In this document: one piece after another, positions 15,906 to 23,404 of the stretch
Position numbering within the stretch: position 1 is the stretch's first letter
Layout: each line of letters begins with the position of its first letter
NCBI GenBank assembly: GCA_030265965.1
Contig: JAJDHA010000010.1
Location: 1-39,670, forward strand
Reading direction: 5' to 3'
Length of the DNA: 39,670 nt
Source: Odoribacter sp. OttesenSCG-928-L07
GTDB taxonomy: Bacteria > Bacteroidota > Bacteroidia > Bacteroidales > BM520
The notes under the pieces: model-generated
Database searches by the model: none
What the model was told of the DNA's origin: nothing
Seen by the model: the letters and a program-made list of their open reading frames with translations, nothing else
Position numbers and translations under genes: made by a program

Positions 15906-16619
15906 TTATTTTTTTATTGCCACTATCTGATTTTTATAATTTAAATTCAACTCTTTATATTTCTCTAAATCGTCTATCGCTTCAAAGAAATATCGTAAAT
16001 TATCTGATTTCTCTTGCAAGTTATTAATCTCACCGACATATATCGGCTGGTCAACATATAATGTTGATAAAATATGATTCTTATTCTTATCAATAAGTAT
16101 TGAAGCGGTTATTGCTTTAAGAAATTTGTCATTTTCAATAAAGTTCACAAGTTCATTAGTTTCACCTGTTACCATTCCATTAATTACTAATAATTCTTCG
16201 CCGTAATATGATGATTTAATTAAACCACCTTTGTCTGTAAGATATTTAATATCTGATTTCGACAAATAAACTCTTGCAATCGGATTCTTTTGAAGCACTT
16301 CAATTAATAATAGTCCCGACACACCGCAGGAAATATTTACAGTATCAATTGCTTCAATTTTATGTAGTTTATTAATGATATGATTGTAATCTAACATCTT
16401 AACATTTGCTCCTTGCAATTCTTCAATCTCGTCGCTCAATAACTCCAATAAAAATGTATCAAGTAACATCAATCTGTTTTCAGGAGAAATGACTTTTACC
16501 TGTATATCTGTTATTTTACGATTATTATACTTATTAGAAAAAATAAATATCGCAGCAATAACAAAGACTACGAAAATCACCGTCAATATCTTTATTAGTA
16601 TGTTTTTAAACTTTGCCAT
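15906..16619 (-). CDS. ftsQ: Cell division protein FtsQ
   Basis: This bitopic inner-membrane protein belongs to the FtsQBL divisome complex. The 237 residues hold a short basic cytoplasmic tail (MAKFKNILIK), one membrane helix at about 11-29, then a POTRA-like and beta region in the periplasm (NKLHKIEAIDTVNISCGVSGLLLIEV..NPIARVY). Similarity to proteobacterial FtsQ is weak, as is usual in Bacteroidetes, so the name rests on topology, the POTRA-like region and position. The start overlaps the end of murC by 14 bases. Its stop is 5 bases before ftsA. Confidence 0.88.
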   Translation of the reverse strand: MAKFKNILIKILTVIFVVFVIAAIFIFSNKYNNRKITDIQVKVISPENRLMLLDTFLLELLSDEIEELQGANVKMLDYNHIINKLHKIEAIDTVNISCGVSGLLLIEVLQKNPIARVYLSKSDIKYLTDKGGLIKSSYYGEELLVINGMVTGETNELVNFIENDKFLKAITASILIDKNKNHILSTLYVDQPIYVGEINNLQEKSDNLRYFFEAIDDLEKYKELNLNYKNQIVAIKK

Positions 16620-17961
16620 ATTTATTTATTAATTCATTATTAATTACTTTGACTAACTTATCAATATCACCTGCCCCGATTGTAACAAATACCTCAGCAT
16701 TGCTGTTTCTAATTGTTGTATCAACTTCAGATTTATTGATAACTTTAACATTTTTAGATATTCTTCCTGCAAGTGCTTCAGAAGTAATTCCTTCTATCGG
16801 AAGTTCGCGAGCCGGATAAATATCTAAGAGATAAAGTTCTTCGAAACGGGACAACTCTTTTGCAAAATCATCCATATAATCGCGTGTACGAGAATAAAGA
16901 TGCGGTTGAAATATTGCACAAATCTTTTTGTTTGGAAAAACCTCATTCAAGGCATCTATCAAGCTTGCAATTTCTGCCGGATGATGCGCATAATCATCAA
17001 CATAGACGATTTCATTATTTTTGTAAACTACATCAAATCTTCTAACAACGCCTTTGTAATTTTGCATTGCTGATTCAATTTGTTTGTCGGAAACATTCAT
17101 CTTATGCGCAATTGTGTAAGCAGCGCAGAAATTTTCAATATTATGTTTACCGTAAACAGTCAAATTATCAAACTCAACAATTTGTCCGCCGGCATTCATC
17201 ACAACTTTTGCCAAATTATCTTCATATTCATAATAATCAACTTGGAATTTTGCGCCATTGTCGATTCCATAAGTTGTGTGAATATTGAAATATTTATTAC
17301 ATTTCTTATTAATGATTCTATTGTTTTCATCGGCTTTTTCAAGAAACTCACGATAAGCATCAATCATTAGTTCTCTACTTTTGTAAACATCAAGATGGTC
17401 GGCATCGACAGCATTTACAAGAGCAATATTCGGATTTAATTTCAAGAAAGAGCGGTCGTATTCATCAGCTTCAACAATCGAGATCTTTGCATCTTTTGAG
17501 TCAATAAAATTATTATCGACATTTTTACTGATTCCACCAATAAATGCGGTAATTGGGATATTGTTATAATTAAAAATATGAGAAACCATTGAAGTAATGG
17601 TCGTTTTACCATGAGTTCCTCCGATAGCAACACAGAATTTTTCATCCGTAATCAATTGTAGGACTTCAGAACGTTTTAAAACGTATTTGAAATTCTTTTT
17701 TGCAAATTCCAATTCAATATTAGTATTTGGAATTGCCGGAGTGTAAATTATCAAATCAACATCATTGTTAATATGATTAATATCTTCTTCGAAATAGATG
17801 TCAATTCCTAATTTAAAAAGCATACCTGTTATCATAGAAGGACTTCTATCGTATCCTGCAACATAGCAATTGCGATTATAGAAATACTGCGCAAGTGCGC
17901 TCATTCCTATGCCGCCGATGCCAATCAGATAAACCGATTTTATGTCTTTTAAATTAATCAT
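16606..17961 (-). CDS. murC: UDP-N-acetylmuramate--L-alanine ligase MurC
   Basis: This cytoplasmic enzyme adds L-alanine to UDP-MurNAc, the first amino acid of the peptidoglycan stem. The 451 residues include the N-terminal nucleotide motif YLIGIGGIGMSALA (11-24), the ATP-binding GGTHGKTT (114-121), EADEYDRSFL in the centre, and the C-terminal domain with RRFDVVY and VDDYAHHPAEI. All three Mur domains are present at normal length, unlike the shortened murD in the same operon. Its ATG overlaps the end of murG by 4 bases and its end overlaps ftsQ by 14. Confidence 0.97.
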   Translation of the reverse strand: MINLKDIKSVYLIGIGGIGMSALAQYFYNRNCYVAGYDRSPSMITGMLFKLGIDIYFEEDINHINNDVDLIIYTPAIPNTNIELEFAKKNFKYVLKRSEVLQLITDEKFCVAIGGTHGKTTITSMVSHIFNYNNIPITAFIGGISKNVDNNFIDSKDAKISIVEADEYDRSFLKLNPNIALVNAVDADHLDVYKSRELMIDAYREFLEKADENNRIINKKCNKYFNIHTTYGIDNGAKFQVDYYEYEDNLAKVVMNAGGQIVEFDNLTVYGKHNIENFCAAYTIAHKMNVSDKQIESAMQNYKGVVRRFDVVYKNNEIVYVDDYAHHPAEIASLIDALNEVFPNKKICAIFQPHLYSRTRDYMDDFAKELSRFEELYLLDIYPARELPIEGITSEALAGRISKNVKVINKSEVDTTIRNSNAEVFVTIGAGDIDKLVKVINNELINKYGKV

Positions 17962-19055
17962 TTTATTTTTTCAATAACATCAATAATTCTATCAACCGAA
18001 TCGGTAATAGCCAATGATTTTATGTTTGTTTTTAATTTTTCTAATTCATTTTTGTTGTTCAAAAGCTCTAAGATTGTAGGAACGAGTTCTTCATTCACTT
18101 TTGAGTTTTCCACCAATTTTGCTGCATCTTTTTTCACAAGAGACATTGCGTTTATCATTTGATGGTTTTCTGCAGCAGTAGGCAATGGCACTAAAATTGA
18201 AGGCAATCCTACAGCACAAAGTTCTGAAATTGCAATTGCTCCGGCTCTTGAAACAACAACATCTGCTACAGAATAAGCATAATTCATTTCTCTAATAAAA
18301 TCGTAACAAAATACATTCTCGGCCTTATTTTCTTCTATTACTGATTTTGCTCTTTCGTAGAATTGCACGCCGGTTTGCCAGATATAATTCGCATTAGACT
18401 TAGAAAGTGAATTAATATTTTGTGCAAGTGCTTCGTTTATTGCTTTAGCTCCTTGACTTCCACCAACAATTAACACAACAGGTTTATCATCTTTAATTTT
18501 GAAATACTCAAATGCAGCAGGATTTTTAGTTTCAATATTAATTATCTCCTTTCTGATAGGATTTCCTGTCATCACAATTTTTTCTTTTGGAAAATATTTT
18601 TCCAAACCATCATAAGCAACGCAGATAGCTTTTGCTCTGTTTGCCATCATCTTATTAGTTTTTCCGGGCAAAGAGTTTTGCTCTTGAATTACAATATCAA
18701 TATTAAGAGCTTTTGCAGCTTGAAGAACAGCGCCGCTGGCATAACCACCAACACCGATAACAACATTAGGTTTAAACTTCTTTAATATTTTTCTCGATTT
18801 AAGAGTACTGCTCACAAACTTAAACATCAAAGGAATATTATGAAAGACCGATTTTCTACTCATTCCTGTAATATTTAATCCGATTATTTCGTAGCCTGCT
18901 TGCGGCACTTTATCCATTTCCATTTTACCTTTTGCGCCCACAAATAAAATTTCAGCATTAGGATATTTCGCCTTGATACCGTTTGCAATAGCTATAGCCG
19001 GAAAAATATGTCCGCCGGTACCACCACCACTTATTATATATCTGTGTTCGCTCAT
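17958..19055 (-). CDS. murG: Undecaprenyl-PP-MurNAc-pentapeptide GlcNAc transferase MurG
   Basis: MurG converts lipid I to lipid II on the cytoplasmic face of the membrane. From ATG 19055 the protein has 365 residues and begins MSEHRYIISGGGTGGHIFPA, with the GGGTGGH loop near residues 10-16. It has GVGGYASGAV, the second glycine motif VLIVGGSQGAKAIN and the donor-binding VVSRAGAIAISELCAVGLPS. The frame is open a further 22 codons, but that would overlap ftsW deeply; the chosen ATG overlaps the ftsW stop by the classic ATGA, supporting coupling. It overlaps murC by 4 bases downstream. Confidence 0.96.
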   Translation of the reverse strand: MSEHRYIISGGGTGGHIFPAIAIANGIKAKYPNAEILFVGAKGKMEMDKVPQAGYEIIGLNITGMSRKSVFHNIPLMFKFVSSTLKSRKILKKFKPNVVIGVGGYASGAVLQAAKALNIDIVIQEQNSLPGKTNKMMANRAKAICVAYDGLEKYFPKEKIVMTGNPIRKEIINIETKNPAAFEYFKIKDDKPVVLIVGGSQGAKAINEALAQNINSLSKSNANYIWQTGVQFYERAKSVIEENKAENVFCYDFIREMNYAYSVADVVVSRAGAIAISELCAVGLPSILVPLPTAAENHQMINAMSLVKKDAAKLVENSKVNEELVPTILELLNNKNELEKLKTNIKSLAITDSVDRIIDVIEKIK

Positions 19056-20146
19056 GACAATTTGTTGTTTAAATTTACATTTCTTATAGCAACTCCTTGA
19101 ATAATACCCATTGCCAGGCACATACTCAACATTGAGCTTCCGCCTTTACTGACAAATGGCAATTGTTGTCCCGTTTCCGGTGCAATTCCGATACAAACTA
19201 ATATATGAACTGCTGCTTGAAGAATAATCAATACTCCTAAGCTGTAAACTAAATATTTCCCGAACAAATCATTTGTTGAAAGAACAATTTTTGCTATTCT
19301 CAACATTATTACAACATATATCAGAATAATAAATGTTCCTAATATTATTCCGCCTTCTTCTACAAAAGCGCTAAAAACAAAGTCTGAGTCAATATTAATT
19401 AAAAATTCTTTAACTTTACCTTCGCCGAAGAAAGTACCGAAGAATCCACCGCGTCCGATAGCATTAACAGGGTCGCCAACAATTTTTTCCTTATTAAACA
19501 CACCCAAAATTCTTTTAAGCCAAGTTATATTTCTTTCACCGTCAAATATTATGTATAATAATAAAACTAAAATTCCAACTCCAACTACAGTCCAAATATA
19601 TTGTTTTTTTATAGGAGTAATTAATAATAAAACAAATACCGCAACCACCATTATCGCAGTTGATGACAATCCTTGGCGTTCAAGACACATTGCCCCTAAA
19701 ACTCCAACAGGAATAAGTATATATAAAATAAAATACTTCCATGATGAGTTTATTTCATTTATTTTTTCATTACAAACAAAACATAAATATATCAGAACAA
19801 ATACTTTTGCAAATTCAACAGGCTGAATACTAAAGCCTCCAAGCCTTAAAGTTCTTACAGCTTTTGCTGCTCCAATTCCCATTGGTGTATATAATAATAT
19901 TATTGACAATAACGACAGAATACATGCTACAAACATTAAGTTTCTAAATAGTTTGCCTTTATAATTTATATATTCGAAGGTAAATACTACAATTAAGCCA
20001 AGAACAACGAAAGCTGCATGTTCAATCATGACTTTTCCTACGCCAACAGTAGTTGGATAAGTAGTGAGCACGCCGATAAATGATAATAAAAGTAATATTA
20101 TCAATGCTGCGTAAATTCCCTTGTCACCTTTTATCAACTTAACCAT
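19052..20146 (-). CDS. ftsW: SEDS peptidoglycan glycosyltransferase FtsW
   Basis: FtsW polymerises lipid II at the septum with its partner transpeptidase (ftsI, in this operon). The 364-residue membrane protein has about ten hydrophobic segments. Family marks are FSIQPVEFAKVFVLIYL (about 105-121), the RGGFFGTFFGEGKVKE loop (about 221-236), and GQQLPFVSKGGSSMLSM near the C-terminus (about 331-347). The usual GxGLGxS-type glycine loop is somewhat altered (GTFFGEG), worth noting but not disabling. It lies 2 bases after the short murD gene and overlaps murG by 4. Confidence 0.94.
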   Translation of the reverse strand: MVKLIKGDKGIYAALIILLLLSFIGVLTTYPTTVGVGKVMIEHAAFVVLGLIVVFTFEYINYKGKLFRNLMFVACILSLLSIILLYTPMGIGAAKAVRTLRLGGFSIQPVEFAKVFVLIYLCFVCNEKINEINSSWKYFILYILIPVGVLGAMCLERQGLSSTAIMVVAVFVLLLITPIKKQYIWTVVGVGILVLLLYIIFDGERNITWLKRILGVFNKEKIVGDPVNAIGRGGFFGTFFGEGKVKEFLINIDSDFVFSAFVEEGGIILGTFIILIYVVIMLRIAKIVLSTNDLFGKYLVYSLGVLIILQAAVHILVCIGIAPETGQQLPFVSKGGSSMLSMCLAMGIIQGVAIRNVNLNNKLS

Positions 20147-20148
20147 GG

Positions 20149-20694
20149 TTATATTTTGTTAATTGCTTTTTTAAATGCTAATCCTTTTTCGTGAAAAGAT
20201 TCGTAATTATTATCAGGACAAGCCGGCGACAAAAGCACAACATCACCTCTAATACTATTACGAAATGCTTTTAATGCGGCGTCATCCATTGAGTCGCTAA
20301 TGATAATTTTTTCAACCAAACCTTGAAAATTATCTAATATCTTATCTATATTTTTTCCTGTATAAATAATACATTTAACTTTATTCCTTACTAAATCAGT
20401 TAATTTAGAATAATCACAATTTTCATCGTTTCCGCCGGCAATCCAAATTATCGGTTTTGTCATATCTTCCAAAGCATACCATGTTGAATTGATATTTTCA
20501 GCTTTAGTATCATCAATAAAATCAACATTTTGAATAGAAGCTACAAATTGCAATCTATGGTCTCTATTGAAATAATTTTGAAAAGTACTTTTCATATTTT
20601 CATTTCTAATATCGACGATATTAGCTGTTACAGATGATGCTAATGAACTGTAAACTTTTGTTCTGCCTTGTTGTGCTAATTTTTCAAAATTCAT
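20149..20694 (-). CDS. murD: Truncated MurD: only the C-terminal ligase domain
   Basis: MurD normally adds D-glutamate to UDP-MurNAc-L-Ala and is about 440-450 residues. This gene, in the normal murD position between mraY and ftsW, is 181 residues. It begins within what would be the last helix of the central domain (QQGRTKVYSSLASSVTA, the degraded equivalent of GKHNxYNxxAA) and then carries the C-terminal domain: DHRLQF (45-50), DDTKAEN (61-67, equivalent to DSKATN) and LLSPAC (154-159). The N-terminal UDP-binding domain and the ATP P-loop domain are absent. The sequence after LLSPAC (PDNNYESFHEKG) is one residue short and lacks the serine that contacts D-Glu in E. coli. It is in frame, with an in-frame stop just upstream. 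It cannot act as MurD alone; it may be a remnant or a repurposed domain. Confidence 0.82.
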   Translation of the reverse strand: MNFEKLAQQGRTKVYSSLASSVTANIVDIRNENMKSTFQNYFNRDHRLQFVASIQNVDFIDDTKAENINSTWYALEDMTKPIIWIAGGNDENCDYSKLTDLVRNKVKCIIYTGKNIDKILDNFQGLVEKIIISDSMDDAALKAFRNSIRGDVVLLSPACPDNNYESFHEKGLAFKKAINKI

Positions 20695-20709: not shown

Positions 20710-21963
20710 TTATCTAATTTTCAATGTTACTAATGTAAATACTGCCAAAATAATTCCCACAATAAAAAATCTCATCACGATTTTTTGTTCAGGCATTTTC
20801 TTTTGTTGGAAATGATGATGAAGTGGTGACATTCGGAAAACTCTTCTTCCGACGCCATAACGTTTTTTGGTAAATTTAAACCAAGATGTTTGAATGATAA
20901 CTGAAAGTCCTTCTATTACAAATATTCCGCAAAGAATTGGCAACAGAAGTTCTTTTCTGATAAGAATTGCAAATACCGCAATAATACCTCCAATGCATAA
21001 ACTTCCCGTATCGCCCATAAACACTTGAGCCGGATTAGTATTATACCATAGAAAGCCTATACACGCACCTACAAATGCGGCAACAAAAATTGTCAACTCC
21101 CCAACATTGGGAATCATCATTATATCTAAATAATCGGCAAAAACAGCATTACCGGAAACCCAGGCAAAAATACCAAGAGTGGCTCCGATTATTGCTGATG
21201 TTCCCGTTGCCAAACCATCAATGCCGTCGGTTAAATTTGCGCAATTTGATACTGCAACAACAATAAGTATTACAATAGGAATAAATATTAACCATGCCCA
21301 TTTATATCTACTGTCTTTATCGACAAACCATAAAATATCTTTATAATTTAACTCGTGATTTTTCACAAAGGGAATTGTTGTTTCAAGATCTTTCTTGGGT
21401 TCAGAAAATGAATATGTTTTTGAGCTGCTTTCTGCACCGTTAGAATCGACTTCAGTTTGCATATTAGTACTGCTTCTTATATGATCTCTAACTACAATAT
21501 CAGGATGACAATAAACAACAATTCCAACAAAAACTCCAAGTAAAACTTGACCGACAACTTTAAATTTTCCTGCAAGTCCGTTTTTGTTTTTCTTGAAAAC
21601 CTTGATATAGTCATCAAGAAAACCGATAAATCCCAGCCAAACTGTTGTAACTAACATTACAATTATATAGATATTATCGAGTTTTGCGAAGAGCAAAGTT
21701 GGAATAACAATAGCAAGGATAATAATTAATCCGCCCATTGTTGGTGTTCCTTCCTTCTCTTTTTGTCCCGGGAGGTTTAAATCTCTTACTGTTTCTCCAA
21801 CTTGTTTTCTTCTAAGAAAATTGATAATTTGTCTTCCGAAGATCATGGATATTATCAATGAAGTTATAACAGCTGCGCCGGCTCTAAATGAGATATATTC
21901 GAACATTCCTGCTCCGGGAAAATCAAAAACTCTGTCTAAATATTTTGCTAAATAATACAACAT
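20710..21963 (-). CDS. mraY: Phospho-MurNAc-pentapeptide transferase MraY
   Basis: MraY makes lipid I from UDP-MurNAc-pentapeptide and undecaprenyl phosphate. The 417 residues span about ten membrane helices. Active-site markers are the aspartate pair in GFLDDYIKV (D117, D118), [10 protein letters not shown] (about 243-252) and the histidine-rich loop [10 protein letters not shown] hydrophilic insertion at about residues 165-215 ([16 protein letters not shown]) makes it longer than the 360 of E. coli, as in other Bacteroidetes. It follows murE by 1 base and precedes the short murD by 15. Confidence 0.97.
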
Positions 21964-21964
21964 G

Positions 21965-23404
21965 TTATTTCAAAATTTCATTAATAATTTCCACATCATC
22001 AAAATGATGTTTTACTCCGTAAACTTCTTGATAATTCTCATGCCCTTTACCGGCAACAACAAGAATATCTCCTTTATTCATCATTCTTACAGCAGCTTGG
22101 ATTGCTTCCATTCTATCTGTAATTGTCATCACTTTCTTATTATTTTCATATTTCACTCCCGACAAAATATCGTTTATTATATCCTTCGGATTTTCAGTTC
22201 GCGGATTATCTGAAGTTACAATTGCTATATCTGCATATTTTGAAACAATATCGCCCATAATCGGACGTTTAGTTTTATCTCTATCACCACCGGCGCCAAA
22301 AACACAAATAATTCTTTCAATATTCGGCAGTTCCGAAATGGAAGATAAAATATTTTGCAATGCATCAGGTGTATGCGCGTAATCAACAATTATCGATTTA
22401 TTTTCTTTATTAGGCACCATCTGAAATCTTCCCTTTGCCCCGATAGTCTTACTTATTGTTGTTCTAATTTCATCTTCATTAATACCACAAAGAATAGCAA
22501 CAGAATATGCAGCTAAATAATTATAAACATTAAATTTTGCAGGTGCGGGCAATAATATTTCTTTTCCATTAATAATTACGTCACTTCCAACTATATGCAT
22601 TTCAATAACCTTCGCATGAAAATCAGCAATATTATTAATTCCGTAAGTAAAAACTTTCGCTTTAGTATTCTCAACCATCGTCATTCCGTTCTTATCATCA
22701 ACATTTGTAAGTGCAAAAGCATCTGAAGATAAAATATTGAAAAACATTTTCTTTGCCGCAATATAGTTAACAAATGTTTCATGATAATCGAGATGATCGT
22801 GAGTAATGTTTGTGAACACACCACCTTTGAAAGTTAATCCTGCAATTCTTTTTTGATGAGCAGCATGAGAGCTAACTTCCATAAAACAATATTCGCAACC
22901 TTGTTCCGTCATTTTATATAAACTTTCGTTTAAACTTATCGGATCAGGAGTGGTATGAGTAGCTTCAAATTCTTTATCCCCTATTTTAATACAAACAGTG
23001 GAAATTAGTCCGCAGTAGTATCCTAATGAAGTGAAAAGGTTATATAATAAGGTAGCGGTTGTAGTTTTACCGTTTGTACCTGTAATTCCAATTAAATTAA
23101 TTTTTGAAGAAGGATTGTCATAGAAATTTGAAGCGATAATTCCTGCAGTATTTGCGCTATCGTTAACAAGAACATAACATATATTTTCGAATATACTTTC
23201 AGGCAATTCTTCACAAACAATAATTTTTGCTCCTAATTCTACAGCTTTATTTATATAATGATGACCGTTTAGATTACTTCCATTAATAGCAATAAACACA
23301 GAATTTTCCACAACTTTTCTTGAGTCGATGCATACTGATGATATATTTGAAGGCATTGTGCCTATCATCTTACGTATTTTAATATTTTCAAGAATATTAC
23401 TCAT
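21965..23404 (-). CDS. murE: UDP-MurNAc-tripeptide synthetase MurE, meso-DAP type
   Basis: MurE adds the third stem-peptide residue. The 479-residue protein has the N-terminal domain ([10 protein letters not shown], 22-31), the ATP motif GTNGKTT (109-115), [12 protein letters not shown] in the centre, and the C-terminal domain with [14 protein letters not shown] at 399-402 is the motif associated with meso-diaminopimelate rather than lysine, so the peptidoglycan is probably DAP-type. All three domains are intact. It overlaps the end of ftsI by 8 bases and ends 1 base before mraY. Confidence 0.97.

Follow-up and report, generated by a model that had tools for sequence, protein, structure and literature searches.

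The window, a stretch of 39,670 nucleotides from Odoribacter sp. OttesenSCG-928-L07 (contig JAJDHA010000010.1), carries a dcw gene cluster in which the murD slot is occupied by a short open reading frame. Genomes with and without a homologue of MurL, which is treated below, are called MurL-positive and MurL-negative. The features of the locus are as follows.

20149..20694, minus strand: short murD, encoding a stand-alone C-terminal domain of 181 aa without the P-loop and UDP-MurNAc-binding domains (TIGR01087 positions 269-440 only; under purifying selection)
20692..20694, minus strand: start codon of the short form, aligned to a Met conserved within full-length Bacteroidales MurD (44 of 46 MurL-positive and 25 of 36 MurL-negative genomes)
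20710..21963, minus strand: mraY, intact, upstream neighbour at a gap of 15 bases
19052..20146, minus strand: ftsW, intact, downstream neighbour at a gap of 2 bases
21965..23404, minus strand: murE, full length, 479 aa
17958..19055, minus strand: murG, probably starting at an ATG (MSEHRY...) that gives a 4-base overlap with the ftsW stop
16606..17961, minus strand: murC, full length, 451 aa

The sequence-only reading had described an ORF of 181 codons filling the mraY-ftsW slot with these gaps, an in-frame stop just upstream and full-length MurC and MurE in the same operon, and these points were borne out, coordinates included. The frame is open for at most 186 codons, with the stop located a few codons upstream of the start. 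The sole Pfam hit was Mur_ligase_C, and TIGR01087 (murD) matched with E=4e-35 over profile positions 269-440 of 441, approximately the last 40% of MurD. The description as a C-terminal domain alone agrees with the Pfam result and needs correction in one respect, as the middle domain is also represented, by its final ~35-45 residues. The TIGR01087 match and the mraY and ftsW neighbours indicate shared descent with canonical MurD, with which the short form also shares the homologous C-terminal domain and the fold core. Unlike canonical MurD, which has three domains, ~440 aa and a P-loop GxxGK(S/T), it lacks the UDP-binding and P-loop domains, reaches 122 bits, below the cut-off of 212, and has lost the ATP and D-Glu contacts. 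Asn271, Thr321, Lys348 and Ser415 (E. coli literature numbering) are replaced by Ser, Glu, Glu and Asp, respectively. The motifs DDTKAEN and LLSPAC are present as first read, and the loop after LLSPAC is indeed one residue shorter and without the D-Glu-contacting serine.

An assembly deletion, considered possible at first, or a chance event was ruled out, because the same arrangement was found in independent assemblies of the same genus, with short proteins 81% (G001), 50% (G004) and 48% (G003) identical to that of the window. The mraY ORFs of G004 (L071) and G205 (L123) seem to lack part of their 3' end (365 and 312 aa compared with ~417), possibly by frameshifts or sequencing errors.

The genome to which the window belongs (G000) is a draft of 1.67 Mb and 74% complete. 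Four ORFs with Mur_ligase_M were detected, namely MurE, MurC, a FolC-type ORF and a MurD-like ligase of 426 aa on contig C41. The latter overlaps a MurL-epimerase-like ORF by 13 bases. This MurL homologue matched NF041275 with E=1.5e-76 over 330 residues, which is below the 700-bit cut-off of a model built for Xanthomonadales. All of the 21 MurL-linked ligases examined had Glu182 and Arg348 (Asp182 to Glu and Lys348 to Arg), the signature of the L-Glu-type MurD2; both belong to the set of replacements described for MurD2 of X. oryzae (PMC8788868). The earlier suggestion of a full murD elsewhere was thus half right, since a complete ligase exists on C41, but it is a MurD2 with MurL and not a second canonical MurD. 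Contamination as the source of C41 is unlikely, because the MurL-MurD2 pair recurs in genomes of the same genus. No gene for the glutamate racemase MurI was detected in G000 (74% complete) or in four same-genus relatives (95-98% complete). Among 60 relatives, MurL was present in 26, MurI (above cut-off) in 33 and both in none (Fisher p 4e-16). Based on the C41 pair, the missing MurI and this mutual exclusion, the D-Glu step in this genome is very probably done by MurD2/MurL, which very probably has taken over the catalytic job of the dcw MurD. The system resembles MurD2/MurL of Xanthomonas oryzae (XOO_1320/XOO_1319) in the linkage of MurL to a Glu182/Arg348 ligase and in the absence of MurI. 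The difference is taxonomic, as the available part of the pathway review names Proteobacteria and actinobacteria and does not have Bacteroidales in its list (PMC8788868), while MurL was present in 84 of the 247 sampled genomes of the order Bacteroidales. In G085 (C12), G188 (C6) and G113 (C329) a single open frame of 885-949 aa spans MurL and MurD2, an apparent epimerase-ligase fusion.

The comparison of the mraY-ftsW interval in relatives, proposed together with the first description, showed that the short gene recurs in 34 genomes of 20 families. The proteins are of 176-190 aa (mode 182), and 33 of the 34 belong to MurL-positive genomes. The gene lies between mraY and ftsW wherever both can be read; the contig of G011 ends before mraY. 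Gaps to the neighbours are often 0-40 bases and reach 80-270 bases in several genomes, with the gene still kept. Among 89 MurL-positive genomes examined, the dcw slot held a short form in 33 and a full form in 50 (a few or more of them interrupted where the contig ends), had lost the gene in two and was unreadable in four. In G002, G026, G134 and G240 the dcw region is absent from the assemblies, so their apparent murD loss was not counted as loss. In the 83 MurL-positive genomes with a readable slot, the dcw murD was never seen to be frameshifted or of intermediate length. In the first 60 genomes, all MurL-negative strains with a readable slot had full-length murD except G021, which also has the only MurL-negative short form among the matches listed in the wider survey.

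Two exceptions to this distribution were analyzed. In the MurL-positive family f77 (draft genomes G083 and G186; L151, L150, L163, L164) no MurD C-domain was found, and the domain can therefore be lost. The dcw cluster is dispersed in both genomes, with mraY adjoining a kdsB-like gene and ftsW standing alone; in G186, MurL is located ~630 bases from mraY. In the other exception, G021 (98% complete, 10 contigs; L106 2826-5828; L158-L160), the MurD of the dcw slot is short and decayed, and neither MurL, MurI nor a full MurD was found in its contigs. The MurC-like ligase of G021 sits outside the dcw cluster, and two tandem ftsZ-like genes follow ftsA (L106 8947-11000).

Phylogenetic analysis indicated that the same reduction to a C-terminal unit of ~180 residues occurred many times in Bacteroidales. 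Both short and full murD are found in eight families (f1, f5, f12, f26, f34, f49, f73 and f94). On the tree of mraY and ftsW, the distribution of the two forms needs 13 changes, at least eight of which are forced by branches with SH-aLRT >=95, and a single short clade was rejected (AU p 1e-66). The tree of the C-domain, based on a short and noisy alignment, needs nine changes and rejects a single origin weakly (AU p 0.017; 0.076 without the fastest rows). One ancestral truncation was ruled out by the former tree and weakly by the latter. The start of 24 of the 34 short forms falls into one alignment column and that of four more within two columns; the N-termini of the remaining six are too diverged to be aligned at this position.

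The selection test proposed with the first description showed purifying selection on the short gene, with dN/dS near 0.1 in most measurable pairs. For the closest pair, G000 and G001, dN/dS (NG86) was 0.12 at dS 0.95, compared with 0.07 for ftsW and 0.06 for mraY; the other measurable pairs gave 0.077, 0.12 and 0.35. In many pairs synonymous divergence is saturated, with the frame nevertheless open. The fold core is conserved, with Asp317 and Phe429 in 34/34 short forms, Trp327, Trp341, Val363 and Pro411 in all or nearly all, and Arg or Lys at position 302 in every one. Best structural matches of the AlphaFold model, made from three sequences, were MurD C-domains, with residues 1-69 of low confidence. 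The adenine and D-Glu contacts are retained less often: Asn271 and Lys348 in 7/34, Thr321 in 19/34 and Ser415 in 23/34. These patterns suggest an order in which truncation was followed by gradual decay of the active-site half while the fold was retained, and the short protein is probably catalytically dead yet folded.

The full forms differ in this respect. The key catalytic residues were kept by the full MurD of the 46 MurL-positive genomes checked, completely in the first 30 and likewise in a further 16, apart from Asn271 to Asp in two. Full MurD therefore still does something in these genomes. MurI was not found in the 50 MurL-positive genomes with a full dcw murD (e.g., G005, L107), and a search for a clear D-Glu source in them gave none. 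PF01177 racemases, proposed as a reason for retention, were detected in 5/33 genomes with short and 15/46 with full forms (p 0.12). The N-terminal and middle domains of full MurD in MurL-positive genomes showed little sign of relaxed constraint (distance ratio 1.41 compared with 1.27, a small difference).

The start of the short form corresponds to a Met inside full-length MurD that is more common in MurL-positive (44/46) than in MurL-negative genomes (25/36; p 0.002). In the MurL-positive full genes, no part of the mRNA is more open than the stretch in which this internal Met lies. Its openness equals that of true starts, with folding of -1.7 compared with -3.0 at the start of the same genes and -1.5 at the starts of the short genes. 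The region was also less folded (p 5e-5) than synonymous shuffles in which amino acids and codon usage were preserved, an effect seen neither at random positions nor at other conserved Mets. The open, start-like region was found again in a validation set of 16 separately fetched MurL-positive genes (p 0.03 for folding, 6e-4 for the excess of A and 6e-5 for the deficit of G), in which a direct folding contrast with 20 new MurL-negative genes was not significant (p 0.6). In the pooled 44 MurL-positive full genes, the segment from -30 to +30 gave -3.5 against -6.8 kcal/mol in shuffles (p 1e-9), again with A excess and G deficit; the pooled 25 MurL-negative genes gave -6.7 against -7.9 kcal/mol (p 0.04), and the two groups differed with p 0.0016. 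Translation initiation in Bacteroidota makes little use of Shine-Dalgarno sequences and favours A-rich unstructured sites, which the internal region fits. Judged by these statistics, there appears to be an internal translation start in the full-length murD of MurL-positive genomes. The conserved in-frame Met and the open, A-rich and G-poor upstream region resemble those of other genes with internal starts yielding a C-terminal isoform; the difference is that here the predicted internal product would be the sole survivor after repeated deletion.

We therefore prefer, with a probability of about 0.6, the reading that the dcw murD has been reduced to a non-catalytic, selected C-terminal domain, likely an interaction module, that was once a second product of the gene. 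Once MurD2/MurL had taken over catalysis, the dcw murD would no longer have been needed as a ligase gene, and deletion would then have removed its 5' part, which encodes the UDP-binding and P-loop domains. What remained would be a separately translated, catalytically dead and folded domain under purifying selection. Since a candidate internal start lies ahead of the C-terminal unit in full murD, the domain probably was already a second product in relatives with the full-length gene. A catalytic job for the short protein is unlikely. By exclusion and by analogy with the literature, it would most likely act as an interaction module of the precursor-synthesis complex, with MraY, MurG, FtsW, MurC/MurE or MurD2/MurL as partners. 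In T. maritima, MurG and MreB are binding partners of MurD (PMC6420597), which makes a binding role near MraY, MurG and FtsW the most natural guess. Scaffolding complexes of MurD/E/F with MurG and MreB and the MurE-MurF fusion of Bordetella are also described (PMC6420597), and the role proposed for the short form would be similar in giving a Mur ligase a place in a protein complex beyond catalysis. They differ in that here a lone C-terminal domain survives. We know of no case in which such a domain is the surviving component of a Mur ligase. Of the possibilities named by the sequence-only reading, a new role for the domain is the one best supported, by purifying selection and by repeated reduction to the same unit.

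Alternatively, the 3' end of murD may have been kept for mraY-murD-ftsW coupling or for expression signals of ftsW, with a useless protein. This is improbable, although the neighbour gaps are often tight, the catalytic residues decay and the domain is gone in f77, the sole family with a dispersed dcw cluster. Coupling alone cannot account for the gene, because selection acts at the protein level, as seen in the low dN/dS and in the fold-core residues conserved across the 34 short forms. Coupling would require merely a short ORF, while the unit retained is domain-sized every time, and the larger gaps of several genomes are tolerated without loss of the gene. Far less probable is a recent pseudogene on its way to loss while the full function resides elsewhere. 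A complete MurD-like ligase and missing active-site residues would agree with it, but 34 genomes, with synonymous divergence from ~1 to saturation, retain the open frame, dN/dS (0.08-0.35) is well below 1, and intermediates are absent from the readable slots.

Two further explanations give the domain a partner. A split ligase completed in trans was among the first suggestions, and it gains some plausibility from the binding of the incoming amino acid by the C-domain of Mur ligases and from the retention of Arg/Lys302 and Asp317 in all short forms. MurD2 carries its own C-domain, and Lys348, Thr321, Ser415 and Asn271 are lost in many short forms. No orphan ORF for the N-terminal or middle domain was found in G000 (incomplete) or in the near-complete short-MurD genomes G008, G038 and G040. 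With no partner fragment found and the ATP and D-Glu contacts lost, this explanation is unsupported and very unlikely. The short form could instead be a dedicated accessory of MurD2/MurL, as an activator, a substrate-channelling or an inhibitory subunit, and not a partner of MraY, MurG or FtsW. The confinement of short forms to MurL-positive genomes, G021 excepted, and an internal-start signal that is clear only in MurL-positive full genes are in accordance with this. G021, with a short MurD and no detectable MurL, and f77, with MurL and no C-domain, conflict with it, as does the in vitro work on X. oryzae, in which the recombinant MurD2 and MurL functioned together with no partner of this kind (PMC8788868). 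We regard such an accessory as unlikely too.

A broader form of the preferred reading, which we hold at a little less than even odds, is that murD of MurL-bearing Bacteroidales is a two-product gene, giving the ligase and an internally initiated non-catalytic C-domain, and that many lineages independently collapsed onto the second product. MurD2/MurL is already known, and truncated MurD is not mentioned in the available part of the review of this pathway (PMC8788868); searches of the open-access literature gave no account of a MurD C-domain standing alone, and within this literature it seems to be new. These results place the MurD2/MurL route in about one third of the sampled Bacteroidales, a group missing from the pathway review as far as its available text goes. 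Most bacteria cannot live without MurD, which is a drug target and has been investigated chiefly for its enzymatic activity. Lineages that dispense with its chemistry and repeatedly keep one of its domains represent a natural separation of function: as the chemistry is unneeded and the C-terminal domain is nevertheless kept, the domain probably does something else. The short-MurD lineages thus offer a clean genetic system for finding this other role and, if the two-product reading is true, would show that a universally essential enzyme of cell-wall synthesis has a moonlighting role.
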